DNA from: an uncultured Lachnospiraceae bacterium
Lineage (GTDB): Bacteria > Bacillota > Clostridia > Lachnospirales > Lachnospiraceae
Direction: 5' to 3'
DNA length: 46,263 nucleotides
Assembly: GCA_947626915.1 (NCBI GenBank)
Contig: CANQUA010000018.1
Coordinates: 1 to 46,263 of the forward strand
A program made the translations under genes and the position numbers. Below the pieces are notes generated by a model. It was not told the DNA's origin. It made no database searches and saw only the letters and a list, made by a program, of their open reading frames with translations. Positions 6,218-45,328 of the stretch are shown here, piece after piece. Position 1 is the first letter of the stretch; each line of letters opens with the position of its first letter.

Positions 6218-6246
6218 TTGGCAGAACCATCCGGCCATGGTATGAT
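6218..6246 (+). promoter_or_regulatory. Promoter candidate for the PIN-like gene
   Basis: TTGGCA (6218-6223) and TATGAT (6241-6246) have a 17-bp spacer and end 27 bp before the first ATG. Confidence 0.6.
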
Positions 6247-6273
6247 GGTTGTGTTGCCATATATGGGGAAAGG

Positions 6274-6988: not shown

Positions 6989-6997
6989 AGTATTTAA

Positions 6998-7026
6998 TTG
7001 CAAAAGCTCTCTTTTTATGCTACTAT
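6998..7026 (+). promoter_or_regulatory. Promoter candidate for the AAA/PD-(D/E)XK gene
   Basis: TTGCAA (6998-7003) and TACTAT (7021-7026) have a 17-bp spacer and begin 10 bp after the end of repeat copy 1. The inserted gene therefore carries its own promoter. AAAGGGGG follows at 7040-7047. Confidence 0.6.
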
Positions 7027-7054
7027 TTGAATAAGCGGCAAAGGGGGCTTTTGT

Positions 7055-8983: not shown

Positions 8984-9170
8984 ATGGCTGTTTGCTTTAA
9001 AAATGCGAAACTGTAAAGTACAGAAGCGCCGGTTACCGTTCAGAAGCAAACATTCGATGTACAAGGGCGTACACGGGAGTTTGCCTTTTTGGCGTGACAG
9101 ACGATCTGTACAGAGTGTCTGCGGGTGACAGAGCGGTAAGAGGAAGGAAGAGAAAGAGAGGAGAAAAATT

Positions 9171-11192
9171 ATGTGCAAGAGCAACAAGAGGTGGCTGGCC
9201 CTGCTCCTGGCCGGAGTGATGGCTGCCGGTATGACTGCCTGCGGCAGTCCGGATACGGGGGAGACCACCGGTTCCGGCAGCGGGGAAGCGGAGCGCAGCG
9301 TCTACAGGACCCTGTACGCCAGCGAAGTGACGACGCTGAATTACCTGACCACGGGCCTGACCAACAACTGGTCCATCGGCGCCAATGTCGTGGACAGTTT
9401 GGTGGAGTATGACTGCTACGGCAATCTGATCCCGTCCCTGGCAGAGTCCTGGGAGAGCAATGACGACATGACCGAGTGGACGTTCCACATCCGCAAGGGT
9501 GTCAAGTGGGTGGACAAGGACGGCAAGGAAGTGGCGGATGTGACGGCCCATGACTGGGTCAGCACGGCCCAGTATGTGAACGACGCCCGCCATGATTCCG
9601 ACAACCAGTACATGTATGAGACCGGTTCCGTGATCACCAACGCCCATGAGTATTATGAGTATACCGCCTATCTGCTGGACTGCGAGACCTACGGCATCAC
9701 CCCGGGCGATCCCGAGGGCAAGGATGACGAGGGCAATGTGGTCGAGCCGGTAGCCGAGGTGTCCGCAGATTCCATCGGCGTCAAGGCCACGGACGATTAC
9801 ACCCTGGTCTTCACGCTGGATCAGCCCTGCCCGTTCTTCCTGAGCGTGCTGAGCTACACCACGTTCATGCCGGTGTACGGCCCGTTCCTGGAGGAAAAAG
9901 GCGACGGGTTCGGTCTGGACAACGACAGCCTGCTGTACTGCGGCGCTTACATACTGTCTTCTTTTGAGCCGCAGCAGGAGCGCGTTCTGACGAAGAACCC
10001 GACCTACTGGGATGCCGGAAACGTGTTCATCGATGAGATCCGCGAGACCTACAACGCGGAGGCTTCCAGCATCAGCCTGCAGATGTATATGGACGGCGAG
10101 GTGGACGGCGCCGGGATCGATACCAACCTGCTGGACAGCATGCTGGCCGACGAGAAATACAAGGACCTGATCCACAGCGGCCGCAACGACATTTCCTACA
10201 GCTATTTCTATTCGTTTAACTTTGATCCGCAGTTCGACGCGGAGTACGAGCCGGAGAATTGGAAGATCGCCGTGAACAATGTGAACTTCCGCAAGGCTCT
10301 GGCTGCCGGTCTGGACCGTGTGCGCGCCCTGGCCGCTTATGATCCTTACAATCCGGAGCTGCTGGTCGGCAATACGGTTACGCCCGCTACGTTCGCGGTA
10401 GGCGCGGGCCTGGATTATACCCAGTATCCGGCGCTGAAAGCGTATTCCGACGGGGACAGCTTCGATGCGGATGCGGCTGTGGCGTACGCAAAGCAGGCCC
10501 GGACGGAACTGGAGGCTGCCGGCTGCAAATTCCCGGTCAAGGTCCTGACGGTTTATAACCCCACGACCTCCAACTGGGATTCCGAGTGCCAGATCGTGGA
10601 GCAGCAGCTGGAAGGCCTGCTGGGCAGCGACTTTATCGACATCATCGTTCAGGCGGGACCGGAAACCGGATTCCTGGCTGCGGTCCGCCGTGCCGGCAAA
10701 TATGCGTTTATGAACACCAACTGGGGCGCGGACTATGCGGACCCTCAGACTTATACCGAGCCGTTCGGCCTGGACAACAGCTACGGCAAGTGGGATAAGA
10801 GCGAAGACCCGGCGACAAAAGCGCTGTTCGCCCAGTGGTACGAACTGGTTTACGGCACGGATGCGGCGGTGAAAGAAGGTCTGGCCGTGGATCCGAACAA
10901 CGGAGTTGTGGGCGCGTCGAAGATTTACGACGACGACGCGGCCCGCTATACCGCGTTTGCGGAAGCGGAAGCGCTGCTGATCGACAACGCGATCGTGGTT
11001 CCCTACAAGATCTCCGGCAGCAGCTACACCATCTCCAACCTGAACCCGCTGGAGGGCGAGTACGCTCCTTACGGCGTGGCGCTGCAGCGTTACAAATACC
11101 AGCATTTGTATGACACTTCCATGAGCATGGACGAGTTCAACGCCGTCTATGAGAAGTGGGAGACAGACCGTGCGGCTGCTCTGGCGAAATAA
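9171..11192 (+). CDS. oppA: Oligopeptide ABC transporter substrate-binding lipoprotein
   Basis: The 673-residue product is a family-5 extracellular solute-binding protein (OppA/DppA type). It begins with a signal peptide and lipobox GMTAC (Cys24), then a Ser/Gly linker, then family blocks such as LAESWESNDDMTEWTFHIRKG (the start of the classic SBP_bac_5 signature) and VNFRKALAAGLDR. It is longer than the usual 540-600 residues, with extra loops around 150-200 and 455-520. It captures peptides at the outer face of the membrane and passes them to the OppBC channel. It is first in the operon; the 290-bp gap to oppB contains a long stem-loop that could favour high expression of this subunit. The start follows a GAGGAG site. 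Peptide specificity cannot be read from the sequence. Confidence 0.93.
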   Translation: MCKSNKRWLALLLAGVMAAGMTACGSPDTGETTGSGSGEAERSVYRTLYASEVTTLNYLTTGLTNNWSIGANVVDSLVEYDCYGNLIPSLAESWESNDDMTEWTFHIRKGVKWVDKDGKEVADVTAHDWVSTAQYVNDARHDSDNQYMYETGSVITNAHEYYEYTAYLLDCETYGITPGDPEGKDDEGNVVEPVAEVSADSIGVKATDDYTLVFTLDQPCPFFLSVLSYTTFMPVYGPFLEEKGDGFGLDNDSLLYCGAYILSSFEPQQERVLTKNPTYWDAGNVFIDEIRETYNAEASSISLQMYMDGEVDGAGIDTNLLDSMLADEKYKDLIHSGRNDISYSYFYSFNFDPQFDAEYEPENWKIAVNNVNFRKALAAGLDRVRALAAYDPYNPELLVGNTVTPATFAVGAGLDYTQYPALKAYSDGDSFDADAAVAYAKQARTELEAAGCKFPVKVLTVYNPTTSNWDSECQIVEQQLEGLLGSDFIDIIVQAGPETGFLAAVRRAGKYAFMNTNWGADYADPQTYTEPFGLDNSYGKWDKSEDPATKALFAQWYELVYGTDAAVKEGLAVDPNNGVVGASKIYDDDAARYTAFAEAEALLIDNAIVVPYKISGSSYTISNLNPLEGEYAPYGVALQRYKYQHLYDTSMSMDEFNAVYEKWETDRAAALAK

Positions 11193-11391
11193 TCTGCGTG
11201 CGCTGGCTGCGCGGAGACGCCGGAGAGAACAGTCCGATATGCAGAATCATAATGCCGAAGCTTCTGTGAAATGAGCTTCTGTTCTGAACGCCTGACGCAG
11301 TTTCTGCGAAAAAGACCGGCAGATGCCGGGAGGAAGATCGCGGAAACGCGCCGGGCGGGAGGAACCGTTCCGTTTTGCGGCAGATCGGGTC

Positions 11392-11457
11392 ATGCGGTTT
11401 TACCGGATCGTCTGTGGCGGTGTCGATGCCGCCAGGGATAATCCGGTAAAACCGTAT
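11392..11457 (+). promoter_or_regulatory. Long stem-loop between oppA and oppB
   Basis: CGGTTTTACCGGAT (11395-11408) pairs perfectly with ATCCGGTAAAACCG (11441-11454) and can extend three more pairs. Inside is a second stem, TGGCGG with CCGCCA. No T-run follows, so it is not a standard terminator. It suits an mRNA-stabilising or processing element that uncouples oppA levels from the rest. No other convincing feature was seen in 11193-11482. Confidence 0.7.
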
Positions 11458-11482
11458 TATAAACAGGAAAGGAGAGGGCCTA

Positions 11483-12436
11483 TTGGCAAAATATATTACC
11501 AAGCGTGTGCTTCACGCCATTTTTACGCTTCTGATCGTCATCTGTATCGTGTTTGTGCTGCTTCGCCAGATGCCCATTGAGGGTTATTTCAATAATATTG
11601 ATAAGCTGACGGAGGCGCAGGTGCAGGCAGGTCTGACCCGGCTGGGACTGACCCGGCCGCTGCCGGTGCAGATCTTCAATTATTTAAAGCAGGTTCTTCT
11701 GGAAGGCAATCTGGGAACTTCCAATAAGTTCCGCGAGGGGTATTCCATCGCCAAGATCGTGGCGTCCAAAGCTCCTATCTCGATTAAGCTGGGACTGATA
11801 AGCCTGGGCGTCTCCCTGGTCGCGGGCATGTCCCTGGGCATTCTGATGGCCAGGTCCACCCGCACCAAATGGAAAGCCTGGGATAAGTTCGGCACGGTTT
11901 TTATCGTGGTGATACAGGCGGTGCCGTCGGCAGTCTATCATCTGCTGATCCAGCTTTACGGCAGCGATCTTCTGGGAGTTTCGATGCTTTTTAAGGAGAG
12001 CGATCTGAAAACCTGGATCCTGCCGATCTTCTCTCTTTCCATCGGAAGCATTGCTTATTATGCCATGTGGCTGCGCCGTTATATGGTGGACGAGGCCAAT
12101 AAGGACTATATCCGCCTGGCCCGCGCCAAGGGAGTACCTTCCGGACGCATCAGCCGGAATCACGTATTCCGCAATGCGGTGGTGCCGTTGGTGCAGTATC
12201 TGCCCAATTCGATCCTGCTGACGCTGGTGGGCTCCCTGTATGTGGAGAGTCTCTATTCGATCCCCGGCATGGGCGGCCTGCTGATCCAGGTGATCAAGCT
12301 GCAGGATAATACCATGGTGCAGGCGTTGGTGCTGATCTACTCGGCAATCTCCGTGCTGGGGCTTCTGCTGGGCGACATCGCCATGGCGCTGGCGGATCCA
12401 CGCATCAGTTTTGTGAAGAAAGAAGGTGCGCGCTGA
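11483..12436 (+). CDS. oppB: Peptide ABC transporter permease, OppB type
   Basis: The 317-residue inner-membrane permease begins AKYITKRVLHAIFTLLIVICIVF, the standard OppB/DppB first helix. It shows about six membrane spans and carries the cytoplasmic EAA-type loop YIRLARAKGVPSGRI, which docks onto the ATPases, and a final VESLYSIPGMGGLL block typical of the family. Translation appears to start at TTG 11483, directly after AGGAAAGGAG; no suitable ATG lies nearby. It overlaps the oppC start by one base (TGATG), so the two are translationally coupled. Confidence 0.94.
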   Translation: MAKYITKRVLHAIFTLLIVICIVFVLLRQMPIEGYFNNIDKLTEAQVQAGLTRLGLTRPLPVQIFNYLKQVLLEGNLGTSNKFREGYSIAKIVASKAPISIKLGLISLGVSLVAGMSLGILMARSTRTKWKAWDKFGTVFIVVIQAVPSAVYHLLIQLYGSDLLGVSMLFKESDLKTWILPIFSLSIGSIAYYAMWLRRYMVDEANKDYIRLARAKGVPSGRISRNHVFRNAVVPLVQYLPNSILLTLVGSLYVESLYSIPGMGGLLIQVIKLQDNTMVQALVLIYSAISVLGLLLGDIAMALADPRISFVKKEGAR

Positions 12437-33050: not shown

Positions 33051-33086
33051 AAAAGGGTGCCGTTTTTTGGCATCCTTTTCTTTTTA
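33051..33086. terminator. Bidirectional terminator
   Basis: AAAAGGGTGCC (33051-33061) pairs with GGCATCCTTTT (33069-33079; one G-U), followed by CTTTTT rightward. Leftward, the stem ends in a CCCTTTT run, so it can also stop transcription coming from the promoter at 33485-33513. Confidence 0.88.
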
Positions 33087-33246: not shown

Positions 33247-33429
33247 ATGTCAGAAAACGTGCGTGAAATATTGTTCCGGGTTTATCAGCCGATCAATAGT
33301 AAGTCACATGAACCGGCGGCGCCGGGCAAACTGCATGGAGGGCTGAAAATATGCAGCCGCTCATTTTTTTATTCTAAAATAGCCAGAAAAAATTTTTGCG
33401 GTTTGTTTTCCAAAGCAAAACTGTCGTAG
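33247..33429 (+). CDS. Doubtful 60-residue ORF left of the inverted repeat
   Basis: An AAGGAAAG site precedes the ATG at a slightly long distance, and the stop codon (TAG) lies inside the left 27-bp inverted repeat. The peptide (starting MSENVREILFRVYQPI) resembles nothing I know. No convincing rightward promoter was seen. It may be a remnant or not a gene. Confidence 0.2.
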   Translation: MSENVREILFRVYQPINSKSHEPAAPGKLHGGLKICSRSFFYSKIARKNFCGLFSKAKLS

Positions 33430-33448
33430 AGTAACATACTCTACGACA
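33422..33448. repeat. Inverted repeat IR-L of the putative invertible promoter
   Basis: A 27-bp palindrome: TGTCGTAGAGTA, spacer ACA, TACTCTACGACA, with perfect 12-bp arms. Its reverse complement matches 33767-33793 at 24 of 27 positions, including the spacer (ACA here, TGT there). No T-run follows, so it is not a terminator. Confidence 0.9.
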
Positions 33449-33484
33449 CCCTCCTGAACCTGTAATTCGCGTTTATCAAAGAGG

Positions 33485-33513
33485 ATTTTACAAAAAAACT
33501 CGTCGTTTGTCAA
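33485..33513 (-). promoter_or_regulatory. Near-consensus promoter, now pointing away from the polysaccharide locus
   Basis: On the minus strand, a perfect TTGACA (33513-33508), 17 bp, and TAAAAT (33490-33485). The predicted transcript runs left through IR-L and meets only the terminator at 33051-33086; no recognisable gene lies in its path. Confidence 0.8.
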
Positions 33514-33516
33514 TAC

Positions 33517-33541
33517 GTTTACCTGAAATGAGAACGTAAAC
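33517..33541. promoter_or_regulatory. Dyad just upstream of the promoter's -35 box
   Basis: GTTTAC (33517-33522) and GTAAAC (33536-33541) are 13 bp apart and end 3 bp from the -35 box, the usual place for an activator. The arms are only 6 bp, so chance is possible. Confidence 0.4.
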
Positions 33542-33766
33542 TTCTGGAAACCCGGTGAAAATCCGGCATTTCAGAAGGGAAATTACCGGCCGTACCGGTA
33601 AAAATCGCTCTTAAGCCGTCAGAATCGCCGTCAGAACCTTCTTCTTTTTCCTCTTCAAAAATGTATTCCAAAAAGAAAACTCAGCGGAGCCTGCCGATTC
33701 TATCCGCCGTCAAACGGTACCGTCGGACGCCTGTTTTTCCAGAAAAACAGCGGAAAAAACAGCGTC

Positions 33767-33793
33767 TGTCGTAGAGTATGTTACTCCACGGCG
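33767..33793. repeat. Inverted repeat IR-R of the putative invertible promoter
   Basis: TGTCGTAGAGTATGTTACTC is identical to the reverse complement of IR-L; the last seven bases (CACGGCG) differ at three positions. In the ON orientation this hairpin would lie about 30 nt into the transcript. Confidence 0.9.
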
Positions 33794-34079
33794 CAGAGTA
33801 CCGCCATCCGCCGTCATGTGCGTCATGATACTGCGCGGATGCGTGTACCGTCTCCCTCCCGGGATCCGTTTCATCAGTAAGCAAGCTTTATCAAAGTACA
33901 AAACCCGGACGCGGCTTCGTGAGCCTTGAGGAGACGTTCCCGCAGAAGGGGGTCATAACGGCCACAGCGTGCGCAGGATGGGCCTGAAGAAGGCGGTCCT
34001 GGGCTATCCTGTGTGCGGCAGGCATCCGGGCTGACCGTGAAGGACGGGCCGGGATGGCGAAGCCTGCGCGTCCGGGGCC

Positions 34080-34124
34080 GCGGGTGCGCCCGCTTACTTC
34101 GTGAAAAAAGCAAGTTCACGGAAG
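34080..34124 (+). promoter_or_regulatory. Two adjacent RNA hairpins in the leader of the NusG-like gene
   Basis: GCGGG-TGCG-CCCGC (34080-34093) is followed at once by CTTCGTGAA (34097-34105) pairing with TTCACGGAAG (34115-34124, one bulge). LoaP, a NusG relative in Firmicutes, recognises an RNA hairpin in the leader of its operon, so this is the natural place for such an element. The rest of 33794-34181 is GC-rich and shows no gene. Confidence 0.5.
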
Positions 34125-34181
34125 GGCAGACGTGCCGGGGCAGCCGGAAGATTTGACGGACAGAAGGGAGAGGCATCGGAC

Positions 34182-34946
34182 ATGCTGTGGTATGTGATAC
34201 AGACGTTTACGGGAAGGGAAGAGCAGCTGGTGAAGATGATCCGGAAGCAGGTGCCGGCAGACTGTTACGGCGAATGTTTCGTGGCCTACTATGAGCAGCT
34301 GCGGGACCGGAGGCAGGAGAACCAGATCCATATCCTGCGGCTGTTCCCCGGCTATATCTTCATCTCATCGGATGATGCCGGCCGCCTCTTCCGGCATCTG
34401 AAGACGATCCCCGCGATGACGAGGATCATCGCCAGCGGGGAGTTTGCGTTTACGCCCCTTTATGAGGGGGAGGCGGAATTCCTCTTAAACATGCTGGACC
34501 GTGACCGCGTGGTCCGCCTCACGTATGTGGCGACGGACGGGCACGACCATGTGACCTACATGGCCGGGCCGCTGGAACGGTGCGTTTCCTGCATCCGTTC
34601 CTACCAGTTCCGCAAACGGGAAGCCCAGGTGTGTGTGCGGATCGCGGGGGAGGAGAAGGTCGTGCGGATGGGGATCCTGTTAAATGACGATGTCCGGCGG
34701 GAGATGGCGTACGGGAAGGTGGAGGCGCGGATCCGCACGCCGGAGAAGTACAGAATCCCGGCGCAGGGAGGCCGGACCGCCGTGCTGGATAAGGGCGACA
34801 ACGTGACAGTCATAGACGGCGCGTTTGAGGGAAAGGCGGCGGTGGTCCGTCAGGTGAAGCCGGGCAGCGTGCTGCTCGCCGTGAGCATGTTCGGCCGGGA
34901 GATTCCGGTGGAGGTGCCGGCCGGGAGCGTGAGGAGACTGGCGTAG
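34182..34946 (+). CDS. NusG-like specialised elongation factor (LoaP/UpxY-like), NGN plus KOW
   Basis: The 254-residue protein begins MLWYVIQTFTGREEQLVKMI, the NusG N-terminal (NGN) domain, with the conserved LFPGYIFIS strand and IPAMTRIIASGE. It ends in a KOW domain (DKGDNVTVIDGAFEGKAAVV, then a strand ending VPAGSVRRL). Such NusG paralogues bind RNA polymerase and allow it to pass terminators in long polysaccharide or antibiotic operons. As the first gene of this locus it is the likely master of its expression. I start it at ATG 34182 (AGAAGGGAGAGG upstream). A second paralogue follows 251 bp later beyond a terminator. Confidence 0.88.
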   Translation: MLWYVIQTFTGREEQLVKMIRKQVPADCYGECFVAYYEQLRDRRQENQIHILRLFPGYIFISSDDAGRLFRHLKTIPAMTRIIASGEFAFTPLYEGEAEFLLNMLDRDRVVRLTYVATDGHDHVTYMAGPLERCVSCIRSYQFRKREAQVCVRIAGEEKVVRMGILLNDDVRREMAYGKVEARIRTPEKYRIPAQGGRTAVLDKGDNVTVIDGAFEGKAAVVRQVKPGSVLLAVSMFGREIPVEVPAGSVRRLA

Positions 34947-35197: not shown

Positions 35198-35953
35198 ATG
35201 CTCTGGTACAAACTGAAGACCTGGTACGGAGGCGAGGAGGCGCTGGTGAAGGAGATCCGGCGCGCCGTGCCGCCCTATCTGTACGAAGATGTCTTTGTGA
35301 TTTACAACGAGAGAAACTTAAGGCGCCAGAGGCAGAGCGTCATTGAGACGGAGCCGCTGTTTAAGGGCTGTGTGTTTTTGACGTGCCGGGAGACGGAGCC
35401 GCTGCTGAGGCGCCTGGATCAGATCCCTGCCGTTTCCCGTCTGATCGGGACGGGCTATCTGTCCATGTTTCCGCTGATGGAGAGGGACGCCCGTTTCCTG
35501 GAGCTGATCTCCGGCCCGGAGCATGTGGTGCGCGTCTCCTATGTGCTGCGCGAGTCCGAAGAAGGGAATACGTACCGGGTCTGCGGGCCGTTGGAGTACC
35601 TGCTGGACGGACTTGAAAAGATCCGTTTTTCCAGCCGGTTCGCAAAAACACACAAACAGCTGTGGGGAGAGGACACGGTGCTGCCGCTGGGGATCCTTGC
35701 GAAGGAAGACCTGGGGGAGAAGATACTGAACCGCGGGGCGGAAGAAGTGCCGGAGCTGCCTGAGGCGGGGCATTATACGCTGCTGGAGATCGATAAAGAC
35801 GAAGCCGGCAGAAATGTGTACCATGCCGGAAGCAGCGTCACGCTTCTTCCCTCCGGAGAACGAGCCGTTCAGGCAAAAGCCGGAGCTGCTGCGGGATATC
35901 AGACAGGGCCGCGCAAACAGCCGGCAGCCGGGAAGGCCGCCGCGGCGATGTGA
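35198..35953 (+). CDS. Second NusG-like factor, KOW domain eroded
   Basis: The 251-residue paralogue aligns with the upstream protein over the NGN domain: MLWYKLKTWYGGEEALVKEI, then LFKGCVFLTC and IPAVSRLIGTGYLSMFPLME, and the linker (CGPLEYLLDGLEKIRF; VLPLGILAKEDLGE). The C-terminus starts like a KOW (HAGSSVTLLPSGERAV) but then turns into an Ala/Gly/Lys-rich tail. No other frame restores a KOW. It may therefore bind polymerase without the partner contacts of KOW, act as a competitor, or be decaying. The ribosome site GGAAAGGAGG is excellent, which argues for expression. Confidence 0.82.
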   Translation: MLWYKLKTWYGGEEALVKEIRRAVPPYLYEDVFVIYNERNLRRQRQSVIETEPLFKGCVFLTCRETEPLLRRLDQIPAVSRLIGTGYLSMFPLMERDARFLELISGPEHVVRVSYVLRESEEGNTYRVCGPLEYLLDGLEKIRFSSRFAKTHKQLWGEDTVLPLGILAKEDLGEKILNRGAEEVPELPEAGHYTLLEIDKDEAGRNVYHAGSSVTLLPSGERAVQAKAGAAAGYQTGPRKQPAAGKAAAAM

Positions 35954-36104
35954 CGCCGGAGCGGCGGGGATTCCGGCAGCGCGCCTGAAGAATTGCCGGG
36001 AACGAAGGAACAGAACGATTATCCCATATAAACTCTCAAACCTCCGGAGGAGAAATATTTTTGAATACACTGCGACCAGCCGGTTCCGGAATGGGGCGGC
36101 TGCT

Positions 36105-37265
36105 ATGAACAAAAAAGCACTGATGACCGCCTCTGTGGCGTCCATGCTGGACAATTTCAACCGAAGCAATATAAACCTGCTATTGGAAATGGGTTATAAG
36201 GTTACGCTGGCTGCCAATTTTGACGCGTCGGAAGATTCCAGCCCATTGTCCAGACTAACGGCGTTTAAGGCAGAGATGGAGGCCCTGGGCTGCCGCGTGG
36301 TGCAGATCGATTTCAGCCGGAAGATCGCGAACCTCCCGAAACAGCTGCGCTCCTACCGGCAGCTGCGGCAGCTGGCCGCGGAACAGGATTTCGCGCTGGT
36401 TCACTGCAACTCGCCGATCTGCGCCGCGATGACGCGTCTGGCGTTCAGAAAGAAAAGGAAAACCAATGGAACCCGGGTGATCTACACCGCCCACGGGTTC
36501 CATTTTTTTAGAGGCGCGCCGGTTAAGAACTGGCTTTTGTATTTCCCGGTGGAATGGGTGTGCGCCCACTGGACGGATATCCTGAACACGGTGAACCGGG
36601 AGGATTACCGGTTTGCCAAAAGATGGCTGAGGGCGGGAAGGGTCGTGCACCTGCCGGGGGTAGGGATCGACCTGGAGAAGTTCAATTCGGACTGCGCGGA
36701 CCGGGAAAAGATTCGGGAGTCAGTTCGGAGAAGTCTGGGCATCGGGAAAGATGAGAAGATGCTGCTGTCGGTGGGGGAATTAAACAGAAATAAAAACCAT
36801 GAAAACGTCATACGGGCATTGAATGAGCTGCACAACCCAGTCTACCGATATTACATATGCGGTCAAGGCATTCTTGAACAGGAACTGAAAGGATTGACCC
36901 AAAAAATGAATCTGGAGGATCAAGTGATCTTTCTCGGATACAGGGAAGATATTGCCGATATTTATCAGGCGGCTGACTTATTTATTTTCCCATCTCTGCG
37001 TGAAGGTATGCCGATGGCACTGATGGAGGCGATGGCGGTAAAGACGCCGGTGATTTGTTCGGATATTCGCGGAAACCGGGAACTGGTGAGAGAAAAAAAG
37101 CTGCGTTTTGATCCTAATAATCCTCAAAATATCGCTGTTTGCATACGCCGGGCTATGAAGATGGATTTGTCGCAAGCGGTGGAGGGCAATTACAGTAAAA
37201 TTCAGAAATACAGGATGGAGATAGTTTGGCAGAAGATGAAAAAGGAATATATTCATGGGGGATAA
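36105..37265 (+). CDS. Glycosyltransferase family 4 (first sugar-transfer gene of the locus)
   Basis: The 386-residue protein has the GT-B fold of family 4. The N-terminal domain reads MNKKALMTASVASMLDNFNR, then LVHCNSPICAAMTRLAFR and IYTAHGFHFFRGAPVKNWL. The C-terminal nucleotide-sugar domain reads MLLSVGELNRNKNHENVI, VIFLGYREDIADIYQAADLFIFPS and the donor-binding E-x7-E region LREGMPMALMEAMAV. This resembles EpsD/CapM-type transferases that act early on the lipid-linked glycan. The start is tentative (GGGGCGG upstream). Base composition shifts from GC-rich to AT-rich near 36770, between the two domains, which suggests a recombination joint. Confidence 0.88.
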   Translation: MNKKALMTASVASMLDNFNRSNINLLLEMGYKVTLAANFDASEDSSPLSRLTAFKAEMEALGCRVVQIDFSRKIANLPKQLRSYRQLRQLAAEQDFALVHCNSPICAAMTRLAFRKKRKTNGTRVIYTAHGFHFFRGAPVKNWLLYFPVEWVCAHWTDILNTVNREDYRFAKRWLRAGRVVHLPGVGIDLEKFNSDCADREKIRESVRRSLGIGKDEKMLLSVGELNRNKNHENVIRALNELHNPVYRYYICGQGILEQELKGLTQKMNLEDQVIFLGYREDIADIYQAADLFIFPSLREGMPMALMEAMAVKTPVICSDIRGNRELVREKKLRFDPNNPQNIAVCIRRAMKMDLSQAVEGNYSKIQKYRMEIVWQKMKKEYIHGG

Positions 37266-37267
37266 AG

Positions 37268-38254
37268 GTGCTCTTTTCAATTATCATTCCTGTCTATAAT
37301 GCGGAAAAATACTTACATCAGTGCATAGACAGTGTCCTCAAACAGACTTATGAACGGTTAGAATTGATTCTGATTGACGATGGCTCACAGGATGGGAGTG
37401 GACAGATTTGTGACCAGTATGCAAAGAATGATTCGAGGGTTCATGTCATACACAAGCAAAATGAGGGCGTGGTGCTTGCCAGGCAGGAGGGGACGGCAGC
37501 TGCAAAAGGCGATTATCTTGTTTTCGTAGATGCGGATGATTTAATATCCAGAACAAGTCTGGAGCAGATTAATATCGTGCTGGAAACTTACGAACCGGAT
37601 ATAGTTGCTTATGGAGCACAGGTCGAAACGCGGACAGGAAGAATAAAAAGACAGTCTTTGAGCGGCGCCGGCATGTATTGTAAGAGAGCTATAGAAAGGA
37701 ATATTTTCCCCTACCTGATACAAACGGACACTTGTAAATATTTTCCACCGTGTTTGGTTACGAAAGCGTTCAGAAGTCAGTTATATAAGGCACATTTGTG
37801 TACTGACAGGGAGATCGTCATAGGGGAAGATGCTGCCGGATCGATTGCCTGCATGTTTCATGCAGACAGTCTGTTTGTTATGAATGAATGTCTTTACTAT
37901 TATAGATTTAATAAAAAATCGGTAACCAGATCGGGCAGGGCATACAGTTGGCGTTGCGCGGAGAGAATAGCTGAATTCTTGAAAAGGGAAATTGATTTAT
38001 CAATCGGTGATCTGGAAGATCAGTTATTGCGGTATGTCGTCCATATGTTATTTATTACTGCCTGTTCACAATTTCAAGGCGGAGGGGATTATAAGCAGAT
38101 TACAGCTTCCATCCACAAGAATATAAATGATCCCTTTTACGCTTCTGCAATAAAAAAATGCCGGTTCCGGTTTCTGTCAAAAGGCTGGCTGGCACGATTA
38201 GCCTTACAGCATGAGTTGTATCCGGCTATGAAATTGTGGAGTTTGATCCATTAA
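37268..38254 (+). CDS. Glycosyltransferase family 2
   Basis: The 328-residue GT-A enzyme begins LFSIIIPVYNAEKYLHQCID and shows LILIDDGSQDGSG, the metal-binding LVFVDADDL, and GEDAAGSIACMFHADSL further on. It adds one sugar to the growing repeat; the donor is unknown. The likely start is GTG 37268, three bases after the previous stop and directly behind GGGGGA. The gene is clearly more AT-rich than 33-36 kb, so it was probably acquired with the variable part of the locus. Confidence 0.88.
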   Translation: MLFSIIIPVYNAEKYLHQCIDSVLKQTYERLELILIDDGSQDGSGQICDQYAKNDSRVHVIHKQNEGVVLARQEGTAAAKGDYLVFVDADDLISRTSLEQINIVLETYEPDIVAYGAQVETRTGRIKRQSLSGAGMYCKRAIERNIFPYLIQTDTCKYFPPCLVTKAFRSQLYKAHLCTDREIVIGEDAAGSIACMFHADSLFVMNECLYYYRFNKKSVTRSGRAYSWRCAERIAEFLKREIDLSIGDLEDQLLRYVVHMLFITACSQFQGGGDYKQITASIHKNINDPFYASAIKKCRFRFLSKGWLARLALQHELYPAMKLWSLIH

Positions 38255-38349
38255 GTGTAATCCGGATATAGAATGGTGAATTTGTAAGGGTTTTTCAAGG
38301 TGAGTGCTATTCTGTCAGGGTTTGCTTATGAGAGGAAGGGAAGAACCGT

Positions 38350-39267
38350 ATGATCGGTGTGGTCATACTGAACTACAATACCTGGGAAGAATCTTTGGAA
38401 TGCATAGAGAGTATTCAGGCAGGCAATTTATCCAATGATATAAGGATTTATCTGGTAGATAATGCTTCATCTGTCAGGAAGCCGAAGAATATGGACGGTT
38501 ACTGCTTAGAGTGTTCCATTACATATATACAAAATTCGGAAAATATCGGATATGCCGCTGGAAATAACATAGGGATACGTCAGGCATTGGCTGATTGCTG
38601 CAGCGCAATCCTTGTCAGCAACAGCGATGTCAGGTATGAAAAAGATAGTATCAGGTTGTTGTATCGTTACTTATCTGAACATCCAGATGCAGGTATTGTT
38701 GGTCCGAAGATTCGATGCCTTGACGGGAAAGTCCTGAAAGGATGCCTGATGATGAAAACAGGCATTCGGGAGAAATATCTGCTCCGCACCTGCTTAAGGT
38801 TTCTGTTCCCAAAGTATGACAGCCGTTACTGGGGACGGCAGCACGATTACGAGAATGAGACATTTCCTGTGTACGCGGTCTCGGGCTGTTGCTTCATGAT
38901 AAGCAGGGAATGCGCGGAACGTGTCACGCCGCTCGACGAGGGGACGTTCCTGTATGATGAGGAACTGATCCTTGGGATACGGATGGAGGAAGCCGGGTAT
39001 GGAACGGTTTATTATCCGGAAAGTACCGTCCTGCATAAAACCGGACAGAGTACCGGAGGGATCCGGACGAATCCTTCCGCCTATACCTGCCAGATACGCA
39101 GTGAGATCTATTACTGCAAAAAATATCTGCATATGAAGAACTGGCAGATCCTGCCGCTCTACCTGTACCGCGCGGCAGTATATGCCAGGTATTGTCTGGG
39201 GAACAGGAGGTTCCGCGAAATGGCAGGAACATTCCTTGCTGATACACGGAAGGAATTCCGGAGATGA
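38350..39267 (+). CDS. Glycosyltransferase family 2 (rhamnosyltransferase-like)
   Basis: The 305-residue protein begins MIGVVILNYNTWEESLECIE, with IYLVDNASS, NIGYAAGNNIGIRQA, the SNSDVRY acidic site, AVSGCCFMISRE and the acceptor-side motif FLYDEELILGIRMEEAGY. This pattern is shared by rhamnosyltransferase-like GT2 proteins of capsule clusters; the sugar is not proven. AGGAAGGGAAG precedes the ATG. The last codons overlap the next gene (ATGA). Confidence 0.88.
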   Translation: MIGVVILNYNTWEESLECIESIQAGNLSNDIRIYLVDNASSVRKPKNMDGYCLECSITYIQNSENIGYAAGNNIGIRQALADCCSAILVSNSDVRYEKDSIRLLYRYLSEHPDAGIVGPKIRCLDGKVLKGCLMMKTGIREKYLLRTCLRFLFPKYDSRYWGRQHDYENETFPVYAVSGCCFMISRECAERVTPLDEGTFLYDEELILGIRMEEAGYGTVYYPESTVLHKTGQSTGGIRTNPSAYTCQIRSEIYYCKKYLHMKNWQILPLYLYRAAVYARYCLGNRRFREMAGTFLADTRKEFRR

Positions 39268-40706
39268 AAATACTGCACTATGTTCTGGGGATACCGCCGC
39301 TGCGTGGGGGAGGGGCAATCAAATACGCGCAGGACCTGGCGGAAGGGCAGCGGAAACTGGGCCATGAGGCATCCCTGATTTATCCGGGTGAAATCCGGAA
39401 GTCAGGAAAGGTAAAGATCATCCGCCACGGGAACAGCAGGAAAGGGATCCTGTATGAGATCATAAACCCGCTTCCGGTCCCGCTTGCATGCGGGATCGCG
39501 GAGCCGGATGCTTTCATGAGGGAAGGGGATGCGGAAATTTACGACAGCTTCTTCCGGAGGGAGAAATTTGACGTACTCCATATACACAGCCTTATGGGGA
39601 TGCACAGGGAGTTCCTTGCCGCGGCAAAAGGGCAGGGAGTAAAGGCCTTTTATACGACGCATGATTATTTCGGCCTGTGTCCGAAGACGGATCTTTTCCG
39701 CGATGGGAAGATATGTCGCGACATATGTTGGGAAGGCTGCGAAAAATGCTGTGCCGGTGCAGATGAGCTAAAGCTGCTGATAAGAAGGCAGTCGCACTTG
39801 TTTCGGTTGGCCATCCGATACGAATGGGTTCCCCGGCTCAAGAGGAAGATTTTCCGTATGGCAGGGCTTGCAGCAGAGCGGCATCCTGGCACGAGAGTAA
39901 CCGGAGGAGCGGACGGCTATGGATCCTGCGGAACGGCTGAAATCGGGCCTGTCTGCTCTTTAGTTGAAACGGATGCGTTTCGCGGTGATGCTTCCGGAGC
40001 ATCTGCAGAGAATACCCTGCCGGCGTCTTATGAGCTTCTGCGTCAGTTTTATTTAGAGGAATTCCAGCAGGTCGATGTATTCCTTTACAACAGTTCCGTG
40101 TCTAAGGAAATCTATGAGAGATACATTCACCCGCAGAAAGGTACTGTTATCGAAGTTTCCCACAGCGGGATACAGGATAACAGGCGCATACGGACGTATG
40201 GAACACTGATGCGGCTGGGATATCTGGGAAAGCCTGGCGCTTACAAAGGTTATGATTTCCTGATCACGGCCCTGGACCGGCTGCTTCCGGAATATACCGG
40301 AAGGTTCACGCTGACCGTATTCATGGAGTACCAGAGTTACCGGAGAGAGTACCTGATTCAGAAGAAGCCGTATGATTACCGGCGTCTGGCGGAAGTCTAC
40401 CGGGATATCGATGTGCTGGTTGTCCCAAGCCTGTGTGCAGAAACCTATGGGCTGGTTGTAAGTGAGGCGATCAGTTACGGTGTTCCGGTAATCGTTACCG
40501 GGAATGTCGGCGCATGTGATCTGGTCCGCAGATATGAAGGTATCGGTTTCATCGTGAGGCCGGAGATCGAAAGCCTGACGGAAACGCTACGGAAGGTCAT
40601 ATCGGACAGTTCCGTACTGGCGGAGGCAAACAGGGCGATCTGCAGGGCACCGATTGAATATGGTTACGAAAAATACATAAGAAGGATTCTGGAAATCTAT
40701 TCATGA
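39264..40706 (+). CDS. Glycosyltransferase family 4, large form
   Basis: The 480-residue GT-B protein begins MKILHYVLGIPPLRGGGAIK and YAQDLAEGQRKLGHE. It has the N-domain motif FDVLHIHSLMG and YTTHDYFGLCPK, a cysteine-rich loop (CRDICWEGCEKCC), a variable insertion at about 190-265, and the C-domain with GYLGKPGAYKGYDFLI, DVLVVPSLCAETYGLVVSEA and YGVPVIVTGNVGA. It overlaps the preceding gene by 4 bp (ATGA), so the pair is translationally coupled. Role: a sugar transfer in repeat assembly; specificity unknown. Confidence 0.88.
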   Translation: MKILHYVLGIPPLRGGGAIKYAQDLAEGQRKLGHEASLIYPGEIRKSGKVKIIRHGNSRKGILYEIINPLPVPLACGIAEPDAFMREGDAEIYDSFFRREKFDVLHIHSLMGMHREFLAAAKGQGVKAFYTTHDYFGLCPKTDLFRDGKICRDICWEGCEKCCAGADELKLLIRRQSHLFRLAIRYEWVPRLKRKIFRMAGLAAERHPGTRVTGGADGYGSCGTAEIGPVCSLVETDAFRGDASGASAENTLPASYELLRQFYLEEFQQVDVFLYNSSVSKEIYERYIHPQKGTVIEVSHSGIQDNRRIRTYGTLMRLGYLGKPGAYKGYDFLITALDRLLPEYTGRFTLTVFMEYQSYRREYLIQKKPYDYRRLAEVYRDIDVLVVPSLCAETYGLVVSEAISYGVPVIVTGNVGACDLVRRYEGIGFIVRPEIESLTETLRKVISDSSVLAEANRAICRAPIEYGYEKYIRRILEIYS

Positions 40707-40717: not shown

Positions 40718-41494
40718 ATGACTAAATTAGCGGAGTTATATTCGTACAGAGAAATGATATACAGCCTGGTCCGCAGGGATTTAAGGGGGAGATATAAAGG
40801 CTCTGTGCTGGGGTTTCTTTGGACTTTTTTAAATCCACTTTTACAGCTGGTTGTTTATACGATGGTGTTTTCCATGATCATGAGGAATAATATCGAGAAA
40901 TACTATCTGTTTTTGTTCGTTGCGCTGGTACCGTGGGGATTGATGAACTCGGCTATGGTAAACGGTTCGACCTGTATCGTCGGGGCGCCGGATATGGTGA
41001 AGAAGATCTATTTTCCCCGGGAGGTCCTCCCTCTGTCGAACACTCTGAGCAATTTTGTCAATATGTTTTTGTGTTTCCTGGTGGTTTTCGCGGTATTGAT
41101 CCTGACCGGGTTCGGTTTGAATTTTCAGGCGCTGCTGTATATGCCGGTTGTGATGGTGACGGAGTTCATCATGGCCTTGGGGATTGCCCTTCTGACCTCC
41201 GCGGTTACCGTGTATATGCGGGACGTGGCTTACATTCTGAGCATTGTTGCCATGGCATGGCAGTTCCTGACACCGATACTATATTCGTCTGATATGGTGC
41301 CGGTGGAACTGCTTCCGATTTTTCGGATGAATCCCATGACTCCGGTGATAGAGGCATACAGGGAGATTCTGTATTATAAGGCAGTTCCGGACCTTACCAC
41401 CCTGATAAGCGCGGCAATTTTTGGGATCATTGTCCTGGCTGTGGGGGAACTGGTGTTTTCAAAACTGCAGAAGGGGTTTTGTGAGGAACTTTGA
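40718..41494 (+). CDS. wzm: Polysaccharide ABC exporter permease (Wzm/TagG type)
   Basis: The 258-residue protein has six membrane spans and the ABC-2 start LYSYREMIYSLVRRDLRGRY, then GSVLGFLWTFLNPLLQLVVY. It carries IYFPREVLPLSNTLSNFVN and a closing segment with MNPMTPVIEAYREILYY. It forms the channel that carries the finished, lipid-linked glycan across the membrane, driven by the ATPase encoded next. Export by an ABC pump means the chain is completed in the cytosol rather than by a Wzx/Wzy route. Confidence 0.92.
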   Translation: MTKLAELYSYREMIYSLVRRDLRGRYKGSVLGFLWTFLNPLLQLVVYTMVFSMIMRNNIEKYYLFLFVALVPWGLMNSAMVNGSTCIVGAPDMVKKIYFPREVLPLSNTLSNFVNMFLCFLVVFAVLILTGFGLNFQALLYMPVVMVTEFIMALGIALLTSAVTVYMRDVAYILSIVAMAWQFLTPILYSSDMVPVELLPIFRMNPMTPVIEAYREILYYKAVPDLTTLISAAIFGIIVLAVGELVFSKLQKGFCEEL

Positions 41495-41523
41495 ACGATA
41501 AAAAATAGCCGGGAGAATCAAGT

Positions 41524-42846
41524 ATGGACAACTGTTATGCAATAGAAGTAAAGAACATATCAAAGCATTTTAAGATATATGCTGATAAAAGCACGACTGC
41601 GAAGGAAAAGATCCTGTTCCGGAAGCGGAATCGATATGAAAAGAAGCAGGTTCTCAATGATATCAGCTTTACCATCCGAAAGGGGGAGTCGGTCGGTCTG
41701 ATCGGTCATAATGGTTGCGGTAAAAGCACGACTCTTAAGATCCTGACCCGGATCATGTACCCGGATTCCGGGACGGTCACGATCCATGGGAGGGTATCGA
41801 GCCTTCTGGAACTGGGCGCAGGCTTTCATCCGGACATGACAGGGGTGGAGAATATCTATATAAACGCGTCGATCTTTGGCTTAGGGAAGAAGGAGATCGA
41901 TTCGAAGCTGAAGGACATCATTGAGTTTGCTGAACTTGGAGAATATATCAATAACCCGGTGAGGACGTATTCTTCCGGTATGTATATGCGTCTGGCTTTT
42001 GCGGTTGCGATCAACGTTAACGCGGACATCCTTCTGATCGATGAGGTCCTGGCGGTAGGGGATGTGAATTTCCAAGCGAAATGCATAAACAAACTAATGG
42101 AGATGAAACGCACAGGCATTACAATTGTTCTGGTATCGCATTCCACAGATCAAATCGAAGCCATCTGTGACCGGAGTATCTGGATCCATGACGGGAAGAT
42201 TCAGGCGGATGGACCATGCAGAGATACCCACCGATTGTATCTGAGATATATGGGGGAAAAGAGGGCAGATAGTAAGGGAGATGAAGAAAAATCTGAAGTA
42301 CAGGAGAATCAGACGGTCCCGGATGACCAAGCCACGGTGAGTATTCAGACTGAAGGGGAAAAGGCTGTCCAGAAAATCCTTCAGGACCGAGGAGATGATG
42401 TGCGGTACAAAGACCGCATGAGAGGGAATGGCGACGCGAAAATCCTGTATATTAACAGTTATGACAGCGAAGGAAATATCAGGAATGTATTTGAAAGTGG
42501 GGAGTCAGTAACATTCCGGATCAAATATAAATTATATAAAAAGACATCGGAGGCATTTTTGGGGCTCTGCATTTTCCGAAATGACGGCTTCCGCTGTTAC
42601 GGAACAAATACGAAAATTGATAATCTGAAAATGGAACTGACGGAGGAAAACGGAGAATTTTCGATAGAATTTCCCAATATGGAATTGCTGCAGGGAAAGT
42701 ATTATGTCGATGTCTGTATTGCGTCCAGGGAGGATGATATGCTGGATTACCTGGACGGAGTAAACGCGTTTGAAATCTATAACACAACCGGGGAGATCGG
42801 GTTGTGCAGGATACCCTATTCGTGGGATATTGAGCATGCGAGATGA
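41524..42846 (+). CDS. wzt: Polysaccharide ABC exporter ATPase with C-terminal glycan-binding domain (Wzt type)
   Basis: The 440-residue ATPase shows Walker A GHNGCGKS (61-68), signature YSSGMYMRLAFA, Walker B ILLIDEVLAVGD and the H-loop LVSHSTDQI. A charged linker (about 245-300) leads to a C-terminal beta-sandwich (GDAKILYINSYDSEGNI; YKLYKKTSEAFLGLCIF; YYVDVCIAS) matching the Wzt_C domain, which reads the modified chain end before export. The methyltransferase gene directly downstream could make that end cap, as in O-antigen systems such as E. coli O9a (inference). Confidence 0.92.
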   Translation: MDNCYAIEVKNISKHFKIYADKSTTAKEKILFRKRNRYEKKQVLNDISFTIRKGESVGLIGHNGCGKSTTLKILTRIMYPDSGTVTIHGRVSSLLELGAGFHPDMTGVENIYINASIFGLGKKEIDSKLKDIIEFAELGEYINNPVRTYSSGMYMRLAFAVAINVNADILLIDEVLAVGDVNFQAKCINKLMEMKRTGITIVLVSHSTDQIEAICDRSIWIHDGKIQADGPCRDTHRLYLRYMGEKRADSKGDEEKSEVQENQTVPDDQATVSIQTEGEKAVQKILQDRGDDVRYKDRMRGNGDAKILYINSYDSEGNIRNVFESGESVTFRIKYKLYKKTSEAFLGLCIFRNDGFRCYGTNTKIDNLKMELTEENGEFSIEFPNMELLQGKYYVDVCIASREDDMLDYLDGVNAFEIYNTTGEIGLCRIPYSWDIEHAR

Positions 42847-42861: not shown

Positions 42862-44055
42862 ATGAAATATGATGATCCTATTATTGAACAGGATAACGAA
42901 GTCCATACCATGATCATGGATATGATCAGGCCGGGCAGTAAGGTATTGGAATTCGGGGCTGCCGCGGGGCGGATGACTAGACTTTTGCGGGATAATTTAC
43001 ACTGCAGAGTTACAATCGTGGAGATAGAAGAAACTGCGTACAGAAAGGCAATGGAATATGCGGAGGACGGACTGTGCGGTGATATCGAGGATCTGGTATG
43101 GCTGGAACAGTGGCGGGACAGACGGTTTGATTATATCCTGTTTGTGGATGTGCTGGAGCATTTAAGACAGCCGCAGAAAATCCTCAAGGCAGTATCGGAA
43201 ATCCTGAAGGAGGACGGCAGCGTTCTCCTGTCGGTCCCTAATGTAGGCCATAATGACCTTGTGGTCAAGCTGTTTGATAAAAGGTTTGATTATACGGACA
43301 TCGGATTGCTGGACAGTACACATCTGCATTTCTGGGCAGAGAAGAACCTTGAAGACATATGCGAAAATACAGATTTGGCTGTAACAGATATCATGTATAA
43401 AACGATTCCCACCGGCGGCAGCGAGCAGTACGCAGGGACGGATATCCATATGGATGGAAACTTGAGGAAGGCTCTGCTCGAAAGAACAAACGGGGAGGTA
43501 TACCAGTTTGTAGTATGTTTGAAAAAGAAAGCTGAAAATAATAAGGTCCTGAATAAAGCCCCGGAACGGTATCCTGACCTGTGGGTTAAAATGTATTATG
43601 ATCTCGGAGAAGGATTCAATGAGGAGAATACCAAATTCCTGCCTGCGAAAAGAATTGCCTGCGGAAGGTATAGGGCTGAGATTTCTGAAGTTAAGAAAGA
43701 CGGATTGACAGCGATTCGTCTTGACTTTATTGAAAATGCGTTTTGTCTTGTTTGGAAGAGTGAAGTGGTATGTGGGTACGACCAATTGGCATCCGTTTGG
43801 CATGGAAGGATCTGCGACGACGTTGGAGTGCTTTTGGGGACGCCTGACCCGTATGTTGTGTGGAAGCTGCCAAAAGAATTAGAGGATGGATTGCCAATAC
43901 AGGGGTGTGTTGAGTTCTGCATACGGGATGAAGTCATAGAGAAATGGATGGAACGTGTGATCTTTAACAGGCAAAAATTAATTCAGAAACAGGAGAATCT
44001 TATAAATAAAATGGAAAGAGATAGAAGAGGGCGGAATTGGAAGAGGAGAAAATAA
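42862..44055 (+). CDS. Class I SAM-dependent methyltransferase with C-terminal extension
   Basis: The 397-residue protein has an N-terminal Rossmann methyltransferase domain: motif I SKVLEFGAAAGRMTRLL, CRVTIVEIEE, FDYILFVDVLEHLRQP and GSVLLSVPNVGH. About 170 residues follow with strands such as GRYRAEISEVKKDGLTAIRL and no family I recognise, possibly a glycan-binding part. It probably methylates the polysaccharide, perhaps the chain terminus recognised by Wzt. A GGGGGG site lies upstream, and the next gene starts 1 bp after the stop. Confidence 0.85.
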   Translation: MKYDDPIIEQDNEVHTMIMDMIRPGSKVLEFGAAAGRMTRLLRDNLHCRVTIVEIEETAYRKAMEYAEDGLCGDIEDLVWLEQWRDRRFDYILFVDVLEHLRQPQKILKAVSEILKEDGSVLLSVPNVGHNDLVVKLFDKRFDYTDIGLLDSTHLHFWAEKNLEDICENTDLAVTDIMYKTIPTGGSEQYAGTDIHMDGNLRKALLERTNGEVYQFVVCLKKKAENNKVLNKAPERYPDLWVKMYYDLGEGFNEENTKFLPAKRIACGRYRAEISEVKKDGLTAIRLDFIENAFCLVWKSEVVCGYDQLASVWHGRICDDVGVLLGTPDPYVVWKLPKELEDGLPIQGCVEFCIRDEVIEKWMERVIFNRQKLIQKQENLINKMERDRRGRNWKRRK

Positions 44056-44056
44056 T

Positions 44057-45328
44057 ATGGCATTTGATCATGTGACGATGGAAATATCGGGATTTTGCAA
44101 TGCGCTATGTAAATGGTGCAAAACTGGCCGAAGAAATCGGACGCGTACGCCGGAAAAGAGCTTCCTGTCATATGACGAGGCGAAAAAAGGCATTAGTTTT
44201 TTAACTGAACATGGAATCATTAACAGACATAGTCTGTTTGATCTGTTCAGTTGGGGAGAACCTTTCTTAAATCCCCAGATCAACGACATAATAGGTCTGC
44301 TGTGTGAAAATGAAATGCGGATAGGGCTGTCAACAAATGCTTCAAAATATGTCGCAATCCCGCCAGAGTATTTACCGCAGATAGAATACCTTATTATTTC
44401 CATTTCCGGTTTTTCTCAGGAGACATATGGAAGAATACATGGTTTGAATTTTGATACTATTATTAAAAACATAGGAAAATATGCGGAATATTTTAGAAAT
44501 CATGGACGTTCGGCAAAGGTTATTATGAATTATCATGTATATCAGTACAATATCCATGAGATCAAAGCGGCGAGTCGGTTCTGTACTGAGCAGCAAATCA
44601 TTTTCTCTCCGCATATTGCATATTTGGCGGATGAGGAACTGTTTCTGCCATATTTGACACATACCATGGAACGGTCCCTGCTGGAGGAAGCATCAGAAGA
44701 GATTCTTTTTGGGATGATCCGGAATCTGGAGGATACGCTTCCTGATGAGATTGTTTGTCCGCAGTGGGACAATCTTGTGTTGGATGAGAAACTGAATGTC
44801 CTTCCCTGTTGCCTGTTTACGTCTGCAAAAAATATGGGAAGTATTTTCTATTTTGAAACACCGGAAGAAATTCGCCGGTTGCTAAAAGAAAACGAATACT
44901 GTAAAAAGTGTATGAGATCCAAGCAGGCGCAGATCGTGACATCACCGATGGAGTTCCCTTATGGTTATACGAATGAAGCAGTCATTATCCCTAAAGTTTA
45001 TCTTGGGGGGGTAGATGGAACATTCAGCGAAGAAAAAACAATGCAGTGTAGTCCGATCCAAAATGGAGACATGTTTCGACTCAGACTGTCCATCGGATTG
45101 GATAATAGAATTATCCGTTTTGATCCGTTAGAAAACAAACGCTGCATCATAGAATCTATCCGCTTTTATGCGGGAGGTGAGGACCTTCCAATCATAAGTA
45201 CAAACGGCACTGCCAAGGAAGGAATGTACTGGTTTGATAATCCGGATCCGCAACTTGTTATTAATGTGGACAGGCATGATGGCTGTTCGGATGAAATAAT
45301 CATAGAAGGGAAATGTATCTGGTATTAA
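44057..45328 (+). CDS. Radical SAM protein with SPASM-like cysteines in a glycan locus
   Basis: The 423-residue protein opens with the Fe-S/SAM motif GFCNALCKWCK (Cys14, Cys18, Cys21; CX3CX2C) and LFSWGEPFLNP, a radical SAM GGEP-like block. A second cysteine group near 236-290 (CPQWDN, PCCLF, YCKKC) looks like a SPASM-type auxiliary cluster site. The last 110 residues form a beta-rich domain (IRFDPLENKRC; IESIRFYAGG) of the kind attached to glycan enzymes. The reaction is unknown; radical chemistry on a sugar or on a peptide linked to the glycan is possible. The gene is AT-rich and tightly coupled to the methyltransferase gene. Confidence 0.85.
   Translation: MAFDHVTMEISGFCNALCKWCKTGRRNRTRTPEKSFLSYDEAKKGISFLTEHGIINRHSLFDLFSWGEPFLNPQINDIIGLLCENEMRIGLSTNASKYVAIPPEYLPQIEYLIISISGFSQETYGRIHGLNFDTIIKNIGKYAEYFRNHGRSAKVIMNYHVYQYNIHEIKAASRFCTEQQIIFSPHIAYLADEELFLPYLTHTMERSLLEEASEEILFGMIRNLEDTLPDEIVCPQWDNLVLDEKLNVLPCCLFTSAKNMGSIFYFETPEEIRRLLKENEYCKKCMRSKQAQIVTSPMEFPYGYTNEAVIIPKVYLGGVDGTFSEEKTMQCSPIQNGDMFRLRLSIGLDNRIIRFDPLENKRCIIESIRFYAGGEDLPIISTNGTAKEGMYWFDNPDPQLVINVDRHDGCSDEIIIEGKCIWY

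Follow-up and report, generated by a model that had tools for sequence, protein, structure and literature searches.

Layout of the locus

The window analysed here is the whole 46,263-nt stretch of DNA and corresponds to contig C18 in genome G000, an assembly of 3.18 Mb in 107 contigs that is 99.4% complete. It holds a polysaccharide locus headed by two NusG paralogues, in front of which lies a short segment bounded by inverted repeats, and the features concerned are as follows.

33410..33421, minus strand: T-rich tract GTTTTGCTTTGG (leftward reading) outside the loaP-distal repeat, with whose hairpin it resembles an intrinsic terminator
33422..33448, no strand: predicted left (loaP-distal) recombination site, perfect 12-bp arms flanking ACA, 7-bp core TAACATA at 33432-33438
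33485..33513, minus strand: outward promoter TTGACA-17-TAAAAT, pointing away from loaP (OFF), 36 bp from the end of its -10 box to the left site
33616..33621 and 33628..33633, plus strand: two CCGTCA direct repeats 12 bp apart, proposed arm-type sites of the recombinase
33707..33712, plus strand: third CCGTCA copy near the right site, with a one-mismatch copy next at 33720-33725; putatively of the same role
33767..33793, no strand: predicted recombination site on the right (loaP-proximal), whose core TATGTTA is the left core reverse-complemented and which lacks a T-tract on its outer side
33892..33980, plus strand: leader motif R1, conserved and lying 5' of loaP; scores 86.2 bits and has no match in Rfam
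34182..34946, plus strand: loaP1, LoaP-like NusG paralogue, 254 aa
35069..35090, plus strand: terminator-like hairpin between loaP1 and loaP2, present in 5 of 27 loci
35198..35953, plus strand: loaP2, second NusG paralogue, 251 aa, without a KOW match
35814..40706, plus strand: glycosyltransferase genes (ORFs 35814-37265, 37226-38254, 38350-39267 and 39264-40706)
40718..42846, plus strand: polysaccharide export, Wzm-like permease (40718-41494) and Wzt-like ATPase (41524-42846)
42862..45328, plus strand: methyltransferase-like gene (42862-44055) and radical-SAM gene (44057-45328)

The two 27-bp repeats (33422-33448 and 33767-33793) are complementary at 24 of 27 positions and enclose 318 bp in which no ORF of at least 80 aa was found, which bears out the inverted copies and gene-free interior described in the first-pass annotation. 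They form inverted pair I1 (24 nt, 96%) among the eight pairs of the surrounding 5-kb region. The near-consensus promoter that had been reported as facing left, away from the locus, lies at 33513-33485 on the minus strand and does point leftward; with a score of 11/12 it is one of two promoter-like sites between 32900 and 35300, the other (9/12) being leftward as well and shuffled sequences giving a mean of 1.1. The lack of any rightward promoter had likewise been claimed, and a simple consensus scan from 33422 to 34182, made in search of evidence to the contrary, found none. The 12-mer half-site itself is unremarkable, with three matches at no more than two mismatches, a number equalled by 13 of 100 shuffles. 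Throughout genome G000 it has 16 matches at no more than one mismatch, close to the 12 of a reversed control, and the half-site alone is therefore weak evidence; it is the palindrome and the paired arrangement that stand out.

The gene at 34182 had been put down as a NusG-family antiterminator and its best model is indeed LoaP, at 114.2 bits and thus below the cut-off of 125 (NF033641, NCBIfam), for which reason we call it LoaP-like. The UpxY model NF033644 (NCBIfam) gave 37 bits, below its cut-off of 100, and the KOW match of loaP1 falls under the Pfam cut-off. In loaP2 a KOW domain was sought and no match was found. An alignment of 18 LoaP2 sequences (A5) keeps the NusG-like N-terminal part and has a different conserved stretch at the C-terminus, and across loci these proteins stand at 56-75% to that of the window, more alike than expected for a decaying copy. 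A loaP2 hit occurs at 29 of the 33 loci that have a loaP1 hit; among the other four, L079 and L110 reach a contig end, L086 is a non-loaP locus with a weak 25% hit and L115 continues for another 4.9 kb in which no loaP2 hit occurs. The hairpin between the two genes was considered as a general LoaP target and rejected as not general, having been found at 5 of the 27 loci, one of them the window, and in 2 of 81 shuffles. Downstream, the polysaccharide locus that had been proposed is borne out by the glycosyltransferases and the Wzm/Wzt-like exporter, the first of these ORFs (35814) having a start that overlaps loaP2 and a true start that probably lies later.

The leader motif R1 was modelled from 33 sequences with a mean column identity of 81% and occurs at 51 or more places in 15 of the 26 genus genomes, 33 of the 51 being the model's own sequences; 150 candidates per genome were scored and the count is a lower bound. 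A LoaP-like gene lies downstream of R1 in 14 of the 14 non-model places checked, out of 18, the four outside the check comprising the two weakest and two next to elements whose contig lacks loaP. A complete inverted pair is absent from those 14 stretches, of which G023:C60 has a single site. No R1 match was found in Rfam for the window region and four other loci. The possibility that R1 is a clearly structured RNA was set aside as five sequences fold no better than shuffles (z -1.27 to 1.13) and just 2 of 15 consensus pairs carry a compensatory change, and on sequence conservation we keep it as a conserved leader motif only. A weaker R1 (36.5 bits; G000:C9:28840-28937, L269) lies just 5' of a third LoaP-like gene of the genome, and no invertible element was found in the 6 kb examined there.

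Paired sites and recombinases across the genus

With up to three mismatches allowed, the palindromic 25-mer has 1 to 13 sites in each of 15 genomes among the 26 of the genus, while its reversed control matches in two of the 26 and at no more than two places per strand. At two mismatches it occurs in 9 of 397 family-wide genomes, two of the nine lying in the genus, and the control gave 0 throughout. Our survey took in 96 of 99 counted sites, by reckoning omitting one each in G021, G023:C60 and G024, and these sites, spread over 56 contigs, form 40 complete inverted pairs, with 16 sites left single. In 14 of the 16 one-site contigs the site is within 1.4 kb of a contig end, and those of G018:C3 and G021:C54 are unpaired despite lying far from contig ends. 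The lone site on G018:C3 (L114:6816-6842), without a partner in 14 kb, is bordered by a flank of target type and, opposite, by one with a T-tract, and looks as if its interior were lost.

Read consistently outward, the central 7-bp core is identical between both sites in 40 of 40 pairs and takes 30 different forms. The pairs were located by their arms alone and the core letters played no part in the search; with partners shuffled 20,000 times, on average 1.5 and at most 8 of the 40 pairs shared a core. Cores matched in this way would be required or produced by a tyrosine recombinase with a 7-bp overlap, either because homology is needed for exchange or because exchange homogenises the cores. 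We also looked for avoidance of duplicate cores within a genome, and there were none among the 40, yet 0.79 would be expected and the difference is not significant (P 0.44).

By the length of the interior the 40 elements fall into 14 short ones of 287-522 bp and 26 long ones of 1.2-1.7 kb. In every one of the 26 a tyrosine recombinase gene is present and runs divergently to the outward promoter. No short element, that of the window among them, contains such a gene. In 37 of the 38 elements measured there is an outward promoter whose -10 box ends 25-36 bp away from one of the sites, and with a slightly looser pattern a promoter in one direction only was seen in 39 of 40, L085 having none. Residues R238, H346, R349, H372 and Y382, which we take to be the catalytic residues, are invariant in 18 of 18 aligned recombinases, 17 from elements and one free-standing enzyme encoded on contig C67 of G000. 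The nearest solved structures to the recombinase profile are those of Tn1549 Int (6en0 and related entries, at 6.5e-25 across positions 117-358 of the profile), and its named relatives, several of them from Lachnospiraceae, are at most 46% identical. Conserved catalytic residues together with linkage to the sites are what characterises a tyrosine recombinase switch, and the family has both.

A second whole copy of the window element lies at G000:C67:15437-15820, with 79% identity, the same 345-bp spacing and both promoter boxes unchanged. A LoaP-like gene starts 453 bp past its right repeat and is cut by the contig end after 23 codons. Exact half-sites in G000 number eight, three in the window element, three in the C67 element and the remaining two where C10 begins and close to where C85 ends. 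The C10 and C85 sites (G000:C10:2-28 and G000:C85:9448-9474), each single and lying at a contig end or close to one, point to one or more additional elements in this genome and are probably not partners of one another, since their cores are one base different.

CCGTCA direct repeats, mostly 12-13 bp apart and in two fixed places, occur in short elements and in four long ones whose recombinase has an N-terminus of GENIYxRKDGRWEGR type (GENIY-type). In zones delimited only after inspection of the elements we counted exact copies, of which 61 lie in the 18 elements that are short or have a GENIY-type recombinase and one lies in the other 22 long elements; two short elements, L085 and L086, have none. 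A GENIY-type recombinase is encoded by each of the six genomes whose short elements bear CCGTCA (G000 C67, G011 C256, G015 C38, G017 C10, G019 C199 and G020 C146), the last being 82% identical to that of G000. The repeats thus co-occur with the GENIY N-terminal type, while a Pfam search recognised no domain there and with it no arm-binding domain. We infer from this distribution that the repeats are putative arm-type sites and that the C67 enzyme, encoded on a separate contig at G000:C67:6658-7869, is the candidate recombinase that would flip the window element in trans.

Among relatives of the recombinase in named genomes, of which the first 42 of 79 loci were examined (L130-L171), 23 of 42 are flanked by inverted repeats scoring at least 17 compared with 0 of 114 shifted control intervals, and 10 of those 23 flanking repeats are palindromic by the chosen threshold. 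Repeat-flanked relatives occur in other gut and rumen Firmicutes such as Ruminococcus bromii (L155) and also in Enterococcus termitis (L156), and self-contained invertible cassettes may be widespread. At L169 inverted repeats of near 400 bp (9095-9492 and 11236-11633), far longer than at other loci, surround the recombinase gene.

Orientation of the elements and the loaP-distal repeat

Seven of the 40 elements are ON, 32 are OFF and one was left without a state, the window and C67 elements both being OFF. The 32 elements of loaP type (5 ON, 27 OFF) lie at a similar position relative to loaP; at L082 and L083 loaP is off the contig and the target side was taken from the leader motif. For the eight elements not of loaP type the target side was taken from neighbouring genes and the T-tract, at L105 from the T-tract alone. 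These precede other surface genes, including large proteins with FctA/SpaA domains (L104, L095), a sugar transferase (L107) and a CpsB/Wzz/AAA capsule set (L086). A second type of target recurs at L104, L095, L089 and L114, where a gene of about 185 aa (no Pfam match at L104, the locus tested) is followed by a very large surface-type protein, that of L104 and L095 being the one with the FctA/SpaA domains.

In order to ask how the orientations relate we compared orthologous loci of sister species and found the interior inverted between collinear flanks in five of nine comparisons and uninverted in four, the nine being drawn from four locus groups and hence non-independent. Both orientations occur in two of the four groups, L079/L088/L093/L103 (two each) and L080/L107. 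Between L079 and L103 the inverted block spans 1124-2568 and 7594-6150, the repeats span 1125-2567 and 6151-7593 and the flanks are 84-90% identical, so the breakpoints of inversion at sister-species loci fall in the repeats. The window locus is without an ortholog among the loci compared and its element is known in the OFF state alone; inversion in the window strain would follow the pattern of its relatives. Inverted repeats around a promoter-bearing segment near a regulated gene are the hallmark of an inverton and are present here, and the family also has both orientations, between species. The sister-species inversion with its breakpoints in the repeats, the 40 of 40 matched cores and the recombinase genes inside sister elements together support the invertible promoter that the first-pass annotation had proposed, and by this comparative evidence the family of invertible-promoter switches is real.

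Two further candidates for evidence of mixed orientation were rejected. A contig end falls no more than 3 bp from four of the 96 sites, where 0.058 would be expected, but repeats this long can on their own break an assembly. Contig starts 50-51 bp before a site, considered as branching at the repeat, failed at G015:C225, the sole contig examined, where C76 overlaps the first 26 bp, away from the repeat.

The leftward transcript had been said to run to a dead-end terminator. A terminator-like hairpin does lie at 33051-33079, and the place is refined in that the nearest predicted stop comes earlier, at the hairpin of the left repeat followed by GTTTTGCTTT. At least four T in the eight bases just outside the loaP-distal repeat are found in 32 of 32 loaP-type elements and at least five in 30, compared with four or more in 4 of 32 outside the proximal repeat and five in one, the C67 copy (distal vs proximal, Wilcoxon P 7e-7). 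All five ON elements have this asymmetry too, and it therefore belongs to the flank. The tract at all 32 loci suggests that the loaP-distal repeat probably doubles as a terminator in the OFF state, in which a transcript would meet a hairpin and U-tract on leaving the element, while in the ON state it would pass a hairpin without a U-tract. In long elements OFF may be leaky, because the recombinase gene then faces the target.

Proposed switch and its relation to known systems

We consider it very probable that 33422-33793 is a site-specifically invertible promoter cassette, OFF as assembled, working along the following lines. A tyrosine recombinase encoded elsewhere, with the GENIY-type enzyme at G000:C67:6658-7869 as the best candidate, would bind both palindromic sites and probably also the internal CCGTCA repeats and invert the 318-bp interior, the 7-bp core common to the two sites limiting exchange to the cognate partner. 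When OFF the promoter would fire left and its transcript end at the left repeat, where hairpin and T-tract would together make an intrinsic terminator. Inversion would bring the -10 box to a position near 33725-33730 and have it read right through the proximal repeat, giving a transcript with a leader of about 445 nt that contains R1, followed by loaP1, loaP2 and the polysaccharide export locus, and LoaP, possibly acting via R1, would render RNA polymerase resistant to termination along the operon.

Other explanations have to be weighed against this. That each site is a near-perfect palindrome with 12-bp arms would suit a dimeric repressor, and the palindromes could be operators of a DNA-binding regulator in a fixed segment whose leftward promoter serves another purpose. 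For a repressor it would be needless that the variable core is matched within 40 pairs and different between pairs, and the inverted interiors at orthologous loci and the tyrosine recombinase genes in sister elements also speak against operators, which we find highly improbable. We give still less credence to a small non-autonomous (MITE-like) mobile element derived from a recombinase-bearing one, with an incidental promoter. Short inverted-end forms do stand alongside longer recombinase-carrying forms and the nearest solved structures, those of Tn1549 Int, make an origin in mobile elements plausible; the 32 loaP-type elements nonetheless occupy similar places in front of loaP and have their T-tract on the side away from it, and orthologous positions are preserved between species.

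The segment could also invert with the assembled orientation not being OFF, loaP being driven by another promoter and the leftward one making a short terminated RNA with a role of its own. The assembled orientation is that of 32 of the 39 elements of determined state and a consensus scan can miss promoters, points which would fit such an arrangement; set against them are the lack of any rightward promoter-like site from 33422 to 34182 and the distal T-tract in 32 of 32 loaP-type elements, and we judge it improbable. A broader proposal, to which we give even chances, is that the genus has a battery of orthogonal surface-coat switches built from domesticated Tn916/Tn1549-like integrases, in which a CCGTCA-guided recombinase would serve several cassettes in trans and others would be self-equipped, private 7-bp cores would block cross-recombination, the far repeat would silence the OFF state and an undescribed leader RNA would couple each switch to its own LoaP/LoaP2 pair. 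Through the matched cores one can test what keeps the several invertible elements of a genome from recombining with each other; that a recombination site doubles as an intrinsic terminator is a proposal, and R1 is a candidate recognition element of LoaP-like proteins at many loci.

The integrases of Tn916 and Tn1549 resemble the recombinases here in that they supply the closest solved structures of the profile. In those transposons direct repeats inside the ends are arm-type sites, which the CCGTCA repeats resemble, while the present elements differ as resident switches with matched cores.

Bacillus velezensis LoaP acts via a UNCG hairpin in the leaders of polyketide operons (PMC12691694); the likeness lies in a LoaP-type antiterminator with a leader upstream of a long operon, and by analogy R1 is a candidate for such a LoaP-acting leader, while the portion of that paper considered here describes no invertible promoter. 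In Eggerthella lenta reversible inversions of ~2 Mbp at 16-bp repeats move capsule loci relative to loaP, with no recombinase gene found adjacent in the part of the account drawn on (PMC13174815), so that reversible inversion changes capsule loci with respect to a loaP gene as here, the difference being that it is not a promoter cassette. The RecV switches of Clostridioides difficile, with flagellar and c-di-GMP targets and a Rho-mediated OFF state (PMC7446863, PMC9286219), share inversion of tyrosine-recombinase type upstream of the target in a clostridial gut bacterium, action in trans at several sites and an OFF state via termination, and differ, in the portions of those papers considered, in using Rho rather than a repeat hairpin with T-tract and in that LoaP is not described for RecV. 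A survey of invertons finds UpxY enriched near them and defines a group 139 of 33 invertons, 32 of them from Clostridia and nearly all near a tyrosine recombinase (group 35), one example having 26-bp repeats (PMC11892184). Clostridial invertons with a nearby tyrosine recombinase are like the elements described here and by description group 139 may be the same family; LoaP has 0 occurrences in that paper, which therefore draws no link to it. The parts of PMC13174815 and PMC11892184 considered do not join an invertible promoter cassette to loaP, and in the open-licence PMC literature we found no report tying LoaP to an invertible promoter and none combining an invertible promoter, Lachnospiraceae, a tyrosine recombinase and polysaccharide.

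An inverton before an antiterminator and polysaccharide locus is already known from Bacteroides, and what is new here is the combination of LoaP-like antiterminators, pair-matched cores, a recombinase in the cassette or in trans and a repeat as probable terminator. The Mpi system of Bacteroides has invertible promoters of capsular polysaccharides before upxY antiterminators, in capsule loci to which upxZ also belongs. The likeness extends from the order of invertible promoter, NusG-superfamily antiterminator and polysaccharide locus to the presence of several such loci per genome in ON and OFF orientations, whereas the elements described here have a LoaP-like antiterminator, a different site with a core private to each pair, a recombinase often within the cassette and a second NusG paralogue in place of upxZ. 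If our reading is true they would parallel the capsule switches of Bacteroides while employing another antiterminator lineage at the corresponding step, and this would suggest that surface glycans are recurrently varied by inverting the promoter of a dedicated antiterminator.
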